Origin: an uncultured Clostridia bacterium | GTDB lineage: Bacteria > Bacillota > Clostridia > Christensenellales > Borkfalkiaceae | Assembly: GCA_944330115.1 (NCBI GenBank) | Contig: CALVIN010000001.1 | Span: forward strand, 124,001 to 188,000 | Length of the DNA stretch: 64,000 nucleotides | Reading direction: 5' to 3' | Part shown: piece by piece, positions 35,554 to 64,000 of the stretch | Numbering within the stretch: the stretch's first letter is position 1 | Layout of the letters: each line of letters begins with the position of its first letter | Made by a program: the position numbers and the translations under genes | Notes under the pieces: generated by a model | Database searches by the model: none | What the model was told of the DNA's origin: nothing | Seen by the model: only the letters and a program-made list of their open reading frames with translations

Positions 35554-35570
35554 GGTTACGCACCTTTAAT

Positions 35571-35604
35571 TTGCGCGCGCCCGCCGCGCGGCGGGCGCGC
35601 GCAA
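35571..35604 (+). terminator. Terminator after clpP
   Basis: A 15-bp perfect GC-rich stem with a GCGC loop, starting 17 nt after the clpP stop, is followed by ATTTTATATTTT. The rest of the 214-nt clpP-clpX gap shows no further gene. Confidence 0.82.
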
Positions 35605-35767
35605 ATTTTATATTTTCCCTTACCGCAATATTTTGTACAGCCATACCGCCGCAAATAGTCATCTGCGGCAGGGCGCCGCACAGTTTTTTCATACATAACA
35701 GAGTGCGACAGTGCCGGCGCGGGCCGTACATATCGTCTGCGGAGATATCCGCGGGCGAGGAGGTATT

Positions 35768-60581: not shown

Positions 60582-62201
60582 ATGGAGATGAAAAAGAGGG
60601 CGCTCGTCAGCGTATCGGATAAGACGGGCATTGTCGATTTTTGCAAGGGACTTGTTGCAAACGGCTTTGAAATAATTTCTACGGGCGGCACGGCAAAGGC
60701 GCTCAAAGAGGCGGGAGTAAGCGTTATAGGCATATCCGAAATAACGGGCTTCCCCGAGTGCCTCGACGGCAGGGTAAAGACTCTTCACCCCAACGTGCAC
60801 GCAGGGCTACTTGCCATGCGCTCCAACCCCGAGCACATGAAGCAGCTCGAGGAGCTGGGCATCAACACCATCGATATTGTGGCGGTAAACCTCTATCCCT
60901 TCAAGGCCACCCTTGCGCGCGGCGCCGACTTTGCCGAGTGCATCGAAAATATCGATATCGGCGGCCCCACAATGATAAGGGCTGCCGCTAAAAACTATCA
61001 GGACGTTGCGGTCATCGTCGATCCCAATGACTATAACAAGGTGCTCGAAGAGCTCGCCGCGGGCGGCGTAACGCTTGAAACCAAGAAGTATCTGCAGTAT
61101 AAGGTATTCGCCCACACCGCCGAGTACGACAGCCTCATCTCCAACTATCTCGCCGATCAGCTCGGGATAGAATATCCCGACACCATAACTTTCGCCTACG
61201 AAAAGGCGCAGGACCTGCGTTACGGCGAAAATCCTCAGCAGTCGGCCATGTTCTATAACGAGCCGTTCATCCGCAAGGGCTCGCTCTCCTCGGCAAAACA
61301 GCTCTGGGGCAAGGAACTCTCATATAACAATATAAACGACGCCAACGGCGCGCTCGAACTGTTAAAGGAGTTCGGCTCTACGCCAGCTGTAGTCGCCTGC
61401 AAGCACGCAAACCCCTGCGGCGTGGGCACCGGCAAGGATATATACGAGGCGTACATGCGCGCATATACCTCCGATCCCGTATCGGTGTTCGGCGGCATAC
61501 TCGCCATAAACGGCACGGTTGACGAAAAGACGGCCGCAGAGATAAACAAGATATTCATTGAAATAGTAATGGCTCCCGCCTACACGGAGGAGGCGCTCAG
61601 GATATTGGAGGGCAAAAAGAATATCCGCCTTCTTCAGATAGACGATATCTCCGCCCGCCGCAGCCCGTCTGCACGCGATATGAAAAAGGTTTACGGCGGC
61701 CTGTTGGTCCAGCAGTATGACGAGTGCCTCATCAAGGACGAGGACATGAGTCTGTTCACCCGCAAGGCCGAAGTCACCGTGACCACCACGCCCTCGGGCA
61801 AGGAAAAGACCGTCTACGGTCTCGGCATAGTTACCGACCGCGTTCCCACCGCCGAAGAGGTGGAGGCAATGATGTTCGCCTGGCGCGTGGTGAAGCACAC
61901 CAAGTCCAATGCTATAGTTATCGGCAAGCCCGGCCGCACTACGGGCATCGGCATGGGCCAGACCAACCGCATATGGGCGGCACAGCAGGCCATCGAGCAT
62001 GCCGGCGAAGAGGCAAAGGGCTCCGTTATGGCGTCCGACGCATTCTTCCCCTTCTCCGACTGCGTGGAGGAGTGCGCAAAGGCGGGCATCACCGCAATAA
62101 TCCAGCCGGGCGGCTCCATTCGCGACAAAGAGTCTGTAGAGGCAGCCAACAAGGCGGGCATCGCCATGGTATTCGTAGGCGAGCGCCATTTCAAACACTA
62201 A
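60582..62201 (+). CDS. purH: Bifunctional AICAR transformylase/IMP cyclohydrolase
   Basis: The 539-residue enzyme carries out the last two steps to IMP. The N-terminal cyclohydrolase domain (about 1-200) has [38 protein letters not shown] and [14 protein letters not shown]. The transformylase domain has [20 protein letters not shown] and [17 protein letters not shown] precedes the ATG. A 630-nt gap follows, far larger than elsewhere in the operon. Confidence 0.96.
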
Positions 62202-62344
62202 AAGTATTTTAATATCGCACAATCTATCCCCCCGAGTTGAGGTAGCGTAAGATGCGGCAAATAATTGTCAAAACAAATAGTGCGCAAGGCTGAATTTATT
62301 TCAGCTGTAAGGTGCGCACCGAGTACCCGTTCATTGCCAAGCGG

Positions 62345-62430
62345 TGAAGCCCCTCCGTCGTGCTTCGTTGCACTTCGCACGCCACCTCCCGCTCAAAGGG
62401 GATGTAAGCCGAAGGCGAAAGAGGGGTTGT
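62345..62430. repeat. Dispersed palindromic element in the purH-purD gap
   Basis: CCCCTCCGTCGTGC, TTCGTTGCACTTCGCACG, CCACCTCCCGCTC and AAAGGGGATG, then GAGGGGTTG, form a loose long hairpin. It is related, in reverse sense, to the block at 3441-3490. It precedes the two tandem structured units. The first ~140 nt of the gap (62202-62344) show nothing identifiable. Confidence 0.5.
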
Positions 62431-62439
62431 TCTAAATAA

Positions 62440-62620
62440 CTTACGTCGCAAGGCGGGTTTCCCGCCGCCGCAGGACTCAATTTGCGCCGGCAGGCGGCTC
62501 ATCAAAGGGGGAATTGCCCCGATTATATGATATGTGAGCCCCTAAAATCGGGGCAAGGGGGAGCTGGCTCCCCAAAACTCACGGAAATTGTTCGGCGGCA
62601 CCAGCCGAACAATTTCGTGA
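62440..62620 (+). ncRNA. Candidate structured RNA upstream of purD, copy 1
   Basis: The unit begins with a 41-nt block (62445-62485) identical to copy 2, holding the hairpin GGCGGG-TTT-CCCGCC. A short hairpin and GGCTCA follow. Next comes an 11-bp stem (62514-62524 with 62546-62556) around a 21-nt loop containing GTGAGCCCCTAA. A 6-bp stem (GGGGAG/CTCCCC, 62558-62563/62568-62573), then ACTCAC, leads to a long stem (62580-62596 with 62604-62619) with one bulged G. No reading frame of note is present. The class is not recognised. Confidence 0.72.
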
Positions 62621-62630
62621 ATTCAAATAG

Positions 62631-62810
62631 CTTATGTCGCAAGGCGGGTTTCCCGCCGCCGCAGGACTCAATTTGCTGCGGTCAGCAGGCTCACTGGAGG
62701 TGAATGGCGGCATTTCTAATAATCGTGGGCCCTAAAAAATGCCGCCAGAGGAACTTAGTTCCTCAAACTCACGAAATTTTTTGCGCGCGGCTCGCGCAAA
62801 AAATTTGTGA
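62631..62810 (+). ncRNA. Candidate structured RNA upstream of purD, copy 2
   Basis: It has the same order as copy 1: the identical block (62636-62676), hairpin GCTG/CAGC (62675-62686), then GGCTCA. An 11-bp stem (62705-62715 with 62737-62747) has a 21-nt loop containing GTGGGCCCTAAA. The next stem is GAGGAAC/GTTCCTC (62748-62754/62758-62764), then ACTCAC and a long stem (62769-62787 with 62793-62810) with a bulged G in the same place. The stems differ in sequence from copy 1 but keep pairing, while the loops are conserved. It ends 8 nt before the TGGAG ribosome binding site of purD. Confidence 0.72.
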
Positions 62811-62831
62811 ACTATCACGTGGAGTATTTTT

Positions 62832-64000
62832 ATGAATGTATTGGTTATAGGTAACGGCGGCAGAGAGCACGCCATACTTCTCGCTCTCAAAAAGAGCAGC
62901 CGCGTCGATAAGCTCTATTGCATGAAGGGCAACGCGGGCACGGCTCAGATCGCCGAAAACGTCGACGTCGACTACATGAACATTCCCGCAGTGGTGGAGT
63001 ACGCAAAGGCCCACCCCGAGATAGATTATTATGTTGTCGCTCCCGACGATCCCCTTGCGATAGGCCTTGTGGACGCGCTCGAAGATATAGGAAAGCGCTG
63101 CTTCGGCCCCCGCAAAAATGCCGCCATAATAGAGGCCAGCAAGGCCTTTTCTAAAAACCTCATGAAAAAGTACGGCATTCCCACGGCCGAGTCGGAGATT
63201 TTCGATAACTACGACGCCGCACTCTCCTACATAAGGGAAAAGGGAGCGCCCATAGTTTTAAAGGCCGACGGCCTGGCTCTCGGCAAGGGCGTGCTCGTAT
63301 GCTCCACTTTAAAAGAGGCGGAGGAGGGTTTGAAGAGCATCATGCTCGACAAGGCCTTCGGCTCCGCGGGCAACAAAGTTGTTATAGAGGAGTGCATGCG
63401 CGGCCTCAAATATACCCCCGGCGAGGAGGTCTCGGTACTCTCCTTCACCGACGGCAAGACGATAGTCCCCATGATAACCTCGTGCGACCACAAGCGCGCA
63501 TTGGACGGCGACAAGGGCCTCAACACGGGCGGCATGGGCACTTTCTCTCCCTGCCCCTTCTGGACGAAGGAGCTCGAGGAGGAGGTAATGAACACCATAA
63601 TGATCCCCACGATGAACGCCATGAATGCCGAGGGTCGCACCTTTAAGGGCTGCCTCTACTTCGGCCTCATGCGCACCGACAAGGGTATGAAGGTGGTGGA
63701 ATACAACTCCCGCTTCGGCGATCCCGAAACGCAGGTGGTGCTCCCCATGCTCAAGACCGACCTCATGGACATATTCGAGGCGGTAACCGACGGCAGGCTT
63801 TCCGATATAAAGATAGAGTGGGATAAGGGCGCATGCGTGTGCGTCGTGCTCGCCTCGGGCGGCTATCCCGCCCACTACGAAAAGGGCAAGGAGATAACCA
63901 TAGGCGACGTGGGCGACTGCCAGATAGTGCACGCCGGCACGGCCATAAAGGACGGCAAGCTGGTAACTAACGGCGGCAGGGTGCTCGGCGTTGTTGCAAA
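62832..64000 (+). CDS. purD: Phosphoribosylamine-glycine ligase, N-terminal part (cut by window edge)
   Basis: The visible 389 codons encode an ATP-grasp GAR synthetase joining phosphoribosylamine and glycine. MNVLVIGNGGREHAILLAL is the N-terminal block. KADGLALGKGVLV is the ATP-binding loop, LNTGGMGTFSP and EYNSRFGDPETQVVLPML the catalytic region. The C-terminus lies beyond the window. TGGAG lies 8 nt before the ATG. It is separated from purH by two tandem structured elements. Confidence 0.95.
   Translation, partial: MNVLVIGNGGREHAILLALKKSSRVDKLYCMKGNAGTAQIAENVDVDYMNIPAVVEYAKAHPEIDYYVVAPDDPLAIGLVDALEDIGKRCFGPRKNAAIIEASKAFSKNLMKKYGIPTAESEIFDNYDAALSYIREKGAPIVLKADGLALGKGVLVCSTLKEAEEGLKSIMLDKAFGSAGNKVVIEECMRGLKYTPGEEVSVLSFTDGKTIVPMITSCDHKRALDGDKGLNTGGMGTFSPCPFWTKELEEEVMNTIMIPTMNAMNAEGRTFKGCLYFGLMRTDKGMKVVEYNSRFGDPETQVVLPMLKTDLMDIFEAVTDGRLSDIKIEWDKGACVCVVLASGGYPAHYEKGKEITIGDVGDCQIVHAGTAIKDGKLVTNGGRVLGVVA

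Follow-up and report, generated by a model that had tools for sequence, protein, structure and literature searches.

A structured, interspersed and probably mobile repeat occupies the purH-purD spacer of an uncultured Clostridia bacterium

The stretch of DNA that we analysed, 64,000 nucleotides from an uncultured Clostridia bacterium and hereafter called the window, carries on its forward strand two open reading frames that we take to be purH (60582-62201) and purD (62832-63998, continuing past the end of the window). The spacer between them holds, on the same strand, two structured units arranged head to tail (62435-62623 and 62626-62813), the second of which ends 18 nt before the purD ATG. 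We scored both with a covariance model, R1, built on 36 full copies that were taken by script from 49 loci of the same genome; copy 1 reached 201.9 bits (E 6.6e-70) and copy 2 206.5 bits (E 1.5e-71), each being itself a training sequence of the model. One further R1 match in the window, weak and degenerate, lies on the reverse strand at 35568-35692 (27.7 bits, E 4.8e-8) and was not recovered by a core model, R2, which describes the 5' domain only and was made from 27 sequences, including some from sister genera. At 62202-62433 of the window, and at many other loci of this genome, other repeat modules occupy the spacer 5' of the element, namely CCTCCCC-TCGA-GGGGAGG hairpins and a module GCGCAAGGCTGAA...TTCAGCC..GCGC that resembles a P1/P2 domain standing alone.

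The element is composed of a 5' domain (helices P1 and P2, the motif CAATTTG and helix P3), a middle part that may be absent (P4, whose loop has 21 nt, and P5) and a 3' hairpin with GTGA-A-C at its end. Copy 1 opens with an AT-rich linker, TTCTAAATAACTTAC (62430-62444), which is the conserved 5' edge of the element: information content climbs from about 20 nt 5' of the CAAG motif in 40 copies of the own genome and 62 of relatives, and the linker is where flank identity stops in eight pairs of similar own copies. The core 5' domain of copy 1 (62445-62496) comprises P1 (GTCGC.. / ..GCAGGAC), P2 (GGCGGG TTT CCCGCC, inside 62452-62466), CAATTTG (62478-62484) and P3 (CGCC/GGCG, 62485-62496); R2, whose alignment includes copy 1, matches it at 62442-62498 with 69.4 bits. 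There follow P4 (62514-62556; inverted-repeat search), the P5 hairpin GGGGAGC/GCTCCCC (62558-62573; predicted fold) and the terminal hairpin (62579-62620; inverted-repeat search), in which TCAC, a bulged G, 13 bp and GTGA succeed one another. In copy 2, P4 (TGGCGGCATTT/AAATGCCGCCA with its 21-nt loop, 62705-62747) was recognised by reading of the sequence and in the predicted fold, and the terminal hairpin with its bulged G and closing TCAC/GTGA (62769-62810) by inverted-repeat search.

Most of what the initial annotation had described in these two units was recovered. Their offset of 191 nt appears as a direct repeat of 57 nt (93%), the 41-nt block GTCGC...TTTGC is, by reading, identical in both, and the remaining differences fall mostly in stems. 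The stem of 11 bp with a 21-nt loop is present in each copy (62514-62524/62546-62556 and 62705-62715/62737-62747), with arms that differ and still pair, and the long 3' stem contains a single unpaired G after TCAC at the same place (62583 and 62773). One element of the description has to be revised: ACTCAC had been listed as a single-stranded piece, and its TCAC instead closes the 3' stem by pairing to the final GTGA; each of the four TCAC/GTGA pairs persists in 76 or 77 of the 77 distinct copies from relatives.

Both copies are predicted to fold stably (copy 1: -83.5 kcal/mol, z -4.50; copy 2: -77.1 kcal/mol, z -4.57), in each case better than 200 of 200 shuffles. We assessed covariation in the 36 own copies on a MAFFT alignment that was not fitted to the fold and found 93.5% of cells paired, 26 of 56 pairs changed on both sides, and a covariation score of 0.376, compared with 0.145 when shuffled and 0.06-0.11 when slid. 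The 77 distinct copies from relatives were aligned with the model, so this alignment leans towards it; here 94.1% of cells were paired, 45 of 49 pairs had changed on both sides (744 cells), and the score was 0.553 (shuffled, 0.165; slid, 0.04-0.11). This relatives' alignment was drawn from matches with E<=1e-36 at 77 hand-chosen loci, a choice that favours intact copies, and five of its 82 rows are duplicates; the sets of relative loci overlap in part, with the same genomes occurring under different names, and the P1 register in R1 is one that suits the own subfamily. A cross-genus alignment of the 5' domain showed double changes in 13 of 14 pairs (score 0.627 against 0.244). Helix by helix, all 11 pairs of P4 had changed on both sides in the relatives (96.3% of cells paired), P5 was paired in 81.4% of cells, and helices 6 and 7, which form the terminal hairpin, in 97.7% and 92.3%; across these 77 copies the inner helices covary as well as the end helices. 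The number of pair types was not above chance in the own copies (489 of 500 shuffles as high) or in the 5' domain (497 of 500), and the number of double-change pairs was reached by 9 of 500 and 35 of 500 shuffles, respectively; only in the alignment of 77 relative copies did all measures exceed every shuffle. The covariation in the 36 own and 77 relative copies upholds the earlier view that a folded strand is strictly maintained.

Other features of the fold qualify this picture. Conserved unpaired motifs include CAAG, ATTTG, GAAT and TCACG, and 29 of 89 unpaired columns are at least 90% conserved, with a mean conservation in unpaired columns (0.77) no higher than that in paired ones (0.75). 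The 3726 pair cells comprise 3411 Watson-Crick, 97 G-T and 27 A-C pairs, and 49 G-T against 20 A-C are left when the two richest columns are removed; this excess of G-T over A-C is a hint that the strand given here is the folded one. For comparison, tRNAs gave 5 G-U in 105 cells, a figure from five distinct tRNAs only. GGCTCA(C) could pair with GTG(A/G)GCC of the 21-nt loop in both window copies, forming a pseudoknot; none of its six pairs had changed on both sides among the 36 own copies, and the GGCTCA/GTGAGCC pairing is plausible in the own subfamilies and lacks genus-wide support. At L143 and L183, the 3' half of the reverse copy has been swapped for that of another subfamily while the 5' domain is common to both, which indicates that whole hairpins can be exchanged between subfamilies; such exchange may lie behind part of the covariation. 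Sister genera carry a short form of about 105 nt, in which almost nothing separates the 5' domain from the 3' hairpin, as well as long forms with a different middle. In two sister-genus genomes the short form stands directly before a match to the ribosomal protein L10 leader RNA, with slight overlap (L236:2247-2469 and L246:1281-1510).

The units at purD are two of many. With both units as BLAST queries, the own genome (1.77 Mb in 15 contigs) returned 86 rows with E<=1, some of which are fragments of a single interrupted copy or match a hairpin in inverted form. Of the 86, 43 have E<=4.6e-21, and these are spread over nine contigs and both orientations; R2 gave at least 45 matches, and we estimate the copy number at about 50 or more. 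A single contig of 265 kb, about 15% of the genome, carries 23 of the 43 best BLAST rows. Copies on this contig lie in both orientations. The most alike pair of copies on different contigs (L037 and L038) is 99.5% identical, and 8 of 630 pairs reach at least 95%; in the eight pairs compared, relatedness ends with TTCTAAAA at the left and, at the right, with GTGA and one or two further bases, the flanks beyond being unrelated. Some copies in this genome look recent. The element contains no open reading frame and is intergenic, and its neighbours are many unrelated genes, to which copies lie both sense and antisense. Dispersal of this kind fits the alternative that the initial annotation had offered, a mobile structured element. 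No known transposable palindrome was matched, and the window has no Rfam family match. With relaxed thresholds, six Rfam rows appeared in the region upstream of purD, all under their family cut-offs. Further relaxed Rfam searches over the elements likewise gave only rows under the cut-offs; cow-rumen-4, seen in one of them (21.3 bits against a cut-off of 48.5), did not recur on a repeat search and was discarded.

R1 matched 69 of 131 genomes, and all of these belong to the same genus (69 of 79 genomes, compared with 0 of 52 others). A search with a DNA pattern returned 59 stretches, every one from Candidatus Coproplasma or from an uncultured Clostridia bacterium. Draws at the level of the order (347 genomes) and class (291 genomes) gave at least 19 and at least 3 matches, those listed all being from the same family, in three genera for the order-level draw. 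R2 matched at least 31 of 121 genomes of the family, in 5 of its 18 genera, and the matches listed from a phylum-level set of 398 genomes came from the own genome alone; these wide searches used strict filters and scored a limited number of candidates, so weak members may have been missed. Phage records yielded just a 33-nt match (E 0.4, in three records), plasmid records none, and the core pattern had no match in viral contigs. Within this sampling, the element is restricted to a single bacterial family, to which Candidatus Coproplasma belongs, and searches of an open-access library with the terms that we used listed no prior description of it.

The presence of the element at a given site varies between relatives. 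Relatives of purD occur in 73 of 81 genomes. Between purH and purD, a match with E<=0.01 was found in 5 of 29 relatives, the other 24 (one of them truncated by a contig end) having none. One match is in the sense orientation (G032), one lies in the opposite orientation adjoining the purH stop (G029), and three are weaker or cut (G108, G102 and G015). For six further insertion sites of the own genome, nine close relatives supplied 30 orthologous loci, taken from 74 matches; three of nine queried gene edges gave no locus. Intact copies were found at one of these loci (L208) and a decayed copy at one (L231), and the other matches in these loci lie away from the orthologous site. A clean empty site for the 185-nt element itself was not obtained. 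Some insertion sites are common to different species. At L150 and L154, between genes that, from their first residues, are presumably dnaK-like and dnaJ-like, about 270 nt of spacer plus element (L150:6597-6870) are identical save for an insert and its edge, with coding flanks that are only 85-86% identical. This identity points to function or constraint, or to recent transfer, at that site, and no other observation speaks as strongly for a host role at some sites.

The insert at this locus is one of two kinds that we noticed inside the element. A hairpin of about 54 nt (ATCTGCCG...CCCTCGCG) sits right after P3 in L154 and is missing from L150, so that comparison of L154:2914-3149 with L150:6686-6870 provides a near-clean empty site for it in another species. 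By reading, a like insert occupies the same place in the own copies L022, L023, L031, L034 and L037; it resembles another mobile element, of very small size, for which the first serves as target. A longer structured insert (GTCACCG...CTCATCTCA...hairpin...) lies in the P5 loop of other own copies at L030, L037 and L045 and in the P2 loop of L021 and L034, in either orientation.

We recorded the position of the element relative to genes with a home-made open-reading-frame caller, for 49 own copies (distinct R1 matches of at least 60 bits) and 72 copies from relatives, the latter hand-picked from 126 matches with omission of same-genome repeats, of matches near locus ends and of most below about 75 bits. 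The gene on the 5' side was uncalled for six own and five relative copies, and some copies share one intergenic region. Among stop-side cases, the 3' end was found -3 to 8 nt from the stop codon for 21 of 29 own copies and 23 of 38 from relatives; among start-side cases, it was at most 30 nt from the start for 12 of 20 own copies and 17 of 34 from relatives. The corresponding counts for the 5' end were 0 of 27 and 2 of 40 at stop codons and 0 of 16 and 0 of 27 at starts. Placement is polar: the 3' end, with its hairpin and GTGA-A-C, is often at a stop codon or ribosome-binding site, and the 5' end almost never is. Overlaps with called genes never exceeded 60 nt (0 of 49 own, 0 of 72 relative copies). 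Between co-directional neighbours, the element was sense in 19 and antisense in 15 own cases (relatives: 29 and 25). Besides single copies, there are several intergenic regions in which two copies stand head to head with both 3' ends towards the genes, and tandem sets of two to four copies occur (four at L242; three at L248 and L235; two at L240, L241, L243, L238 and in the window). Of 28 measurable purH-purD spacers, 15 are just 13-46 nt long, and none of these 15 has an R1 match. Landing in short spacers can account for closeness to gene edges; alone, it gives no reason for the 5' side to be the distant one, and we infer that further modules pile up on that side.

Taken together, these data make it very probable that we are dealing with a dispersed repeat of mobile type, and they favour with fair confidence the reading that the two window units are copies of a non-autonomous, structured, interspersed mobile element of one family. 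Its association with purD is accidental, and a purine-specific role there is probably absent. The strongest competing explanation is that the copies, however they spread, are retained as domesticated elements for the action of their hairpins in operon mRNAs. Many copies lie near stop codons or ribosome-binding sites, two species have an identical copy amid diverged coding DNA, the short form adjoins the L10 leader at two sister-genus loci, and there are precedents in ERIC and NEMIS, whose hairpins are proposed to act in processing or stability of operon mRNAs (PMC2229807). The nearly equal numbers of sense and antisense placements and the high turnover at orthologous sites speak against it, and as a general account it seems to us possible and distinctly the lesser prospect. 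By analogy, a role in host mRNA is possible at retained sites, and if the element is part of a read-through operon mRNA at purD, it may affect transcript processing there.

The ends of the element bear on whether it could be a classical MITE, with terminal inverted repeats, a DDE transposase acting in trans and an inner fold that is incidental. Size and intergenic habit agree with this, and, by reading, the start of copy 1 (ATAACTTAC) and the end of copy 2 (GTGAACTAT) share 7 of 9 inverted matches. However, positions 3' of GTGA-A-C hold little information and this tail is unconserved, so that the element lacks the terminal inverted repeats that usually mark small intergenic repeats, and no clear target duplication was detected either in the own copies (longest shared word 4.53, shuffled 4.47) or in those of relatives (5.18, compared with 4.87 and a shuffle maximum of 5.23). 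An incidental inner fold is also hard to reconcile with inner helices that covary as well as the ends, and we regard a MITE as improbable.

We searched with protein profiles for enzymes that could move the element. The Y1 transposase profile PF01797 and the reverse transcriptase profile PF00078 (RVT_1) had no match in the own genome and are patchy across the genus (22 of 81 and 27 of 81 genomes overall, respectively), and the TnpB profile PF07282 was found in 0 of 61 genomes. No candidate mobiliser emerged from these three profiles; with the assembly 95.6% complete, a gene may have been missed, and absence of a profile is no proof. An RNA-borne element, derived from a ribozyme or retroelement and copied by reverse transcription, would suit the multi-helix fold with some conserved unpaired motifs and the tandem copies. 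It sits badly with a copy-rich genome that lacks an RVT_1 match and with the finding of no Rfam ribozyme or intron over the elements, and we consider it very unlikely. The tandem riboswitch or other purine-responsive purD leader that the location and tandem layout had first suggested can virtually be dismissed, given dozens of copies beside unrelated genes in both orientations with no fixed sense position before regulated genes, a sporadic presence that leaves 24 of 29 relatives without a purH-purD match and places one of the five others in reverse, and no Rfam match.

Returning to the non-autonomous mobile element, its fold, spread, turnover, end polarity and clustering are matters of direct observation. 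How it moves we infer: recognition of a folded strand appears the most likely route, because helices are kept along the whole length and the 3' end is polar and bounded by a hairpin, and we put the chance of folded-strand rather than double-stranded recognition at about even. Granted such recognition, a single-stranded DNA intermediate is somewhat favoured over an RNA one. A putative enzyme would recognise the element as a folded single strand, one end of which would be marked by the 3' hairpin and GTGA-A-C, and new copies would land in short intergenic spacers or directly beside an older copy, the latter giving rise to tandem and head-to-head sets. More speculatively, the element might belong to a novel class of replicators made of structured nucleic acid: a multi-helix strand, kept by covariation in five genera, that inserts with its 3' hairpin against gene ends or its own kind and owes its movement to its own catalysis or to an enzyme outside known types of mobile element. 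We think this doubtful.

Small structured repeats of bacteria have mostly been described as simple palindromes with inferred mobilisers. Here a complex fold is kept while stem sequences are replaced across genus-level distances, and the combination of fold upkeep with recent-looking copies makes possible a direct test of which form is recognised, folded strand or duplex. The locus also carries a warning: clear covariation next to a suggestive gene does not make a riboswitch, and genome-wide copy number and orientation should be checked first.

Several known systems invite comparison. Hairpins with a bulged base are features of REP/REPIN and of IS200/IS605-type single-strand elements, HEARO and TnpB guide RNAs are structured RNAs tied to a mobile element and often present in many copies, and BIMEs are intergenic mosaics of several repeat modules. 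Unlike with HEARO or TnpB guide RNAs, there was no Rfam HEARO row even at E<=10, nor PF07282 in the 61 genomes. Intergenic mosaics of modules also recall BIMEs (named in tables of PMC2267715), but the core here is a 185-nt multi-helix unit. With REP/REPIN-RAYT and IS200/IS605 elements (PMC3116915, PMC8266576 and PMC6006769), the element shares a hairpin beside a short conserved end and clustered copies, and its hairpin, too, carries a bulged base. It is longer than REPs, which measure 20-40 bp (PMC3733652), and its own genome is without the Y1 transposase profile. The comparison with ERIC, NEMIS (Correia), RUP, CIR and YPAL follows the review PMC2229807, where most of these repeats have terminal inverted repeats, several have target duplications, and the structure is one long stem, or two arms in CIR. 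Unlike that group, the element has five or six helices, cross-genus covariation, no clear duplication, polarity of its 3' end to gene edges and tandem sets of 2-4 copies. Like that group as described there (PMC2229807), it is about 100-200 nt long, non-autonomous, mostly intergenic and present in many copies with strongly paired transcripts, and NEMIS likewise occurs in a form lengthened by an extra internal stretch. The element works like these known small intergenic repeats, but its fold is more complex and covaries widely.
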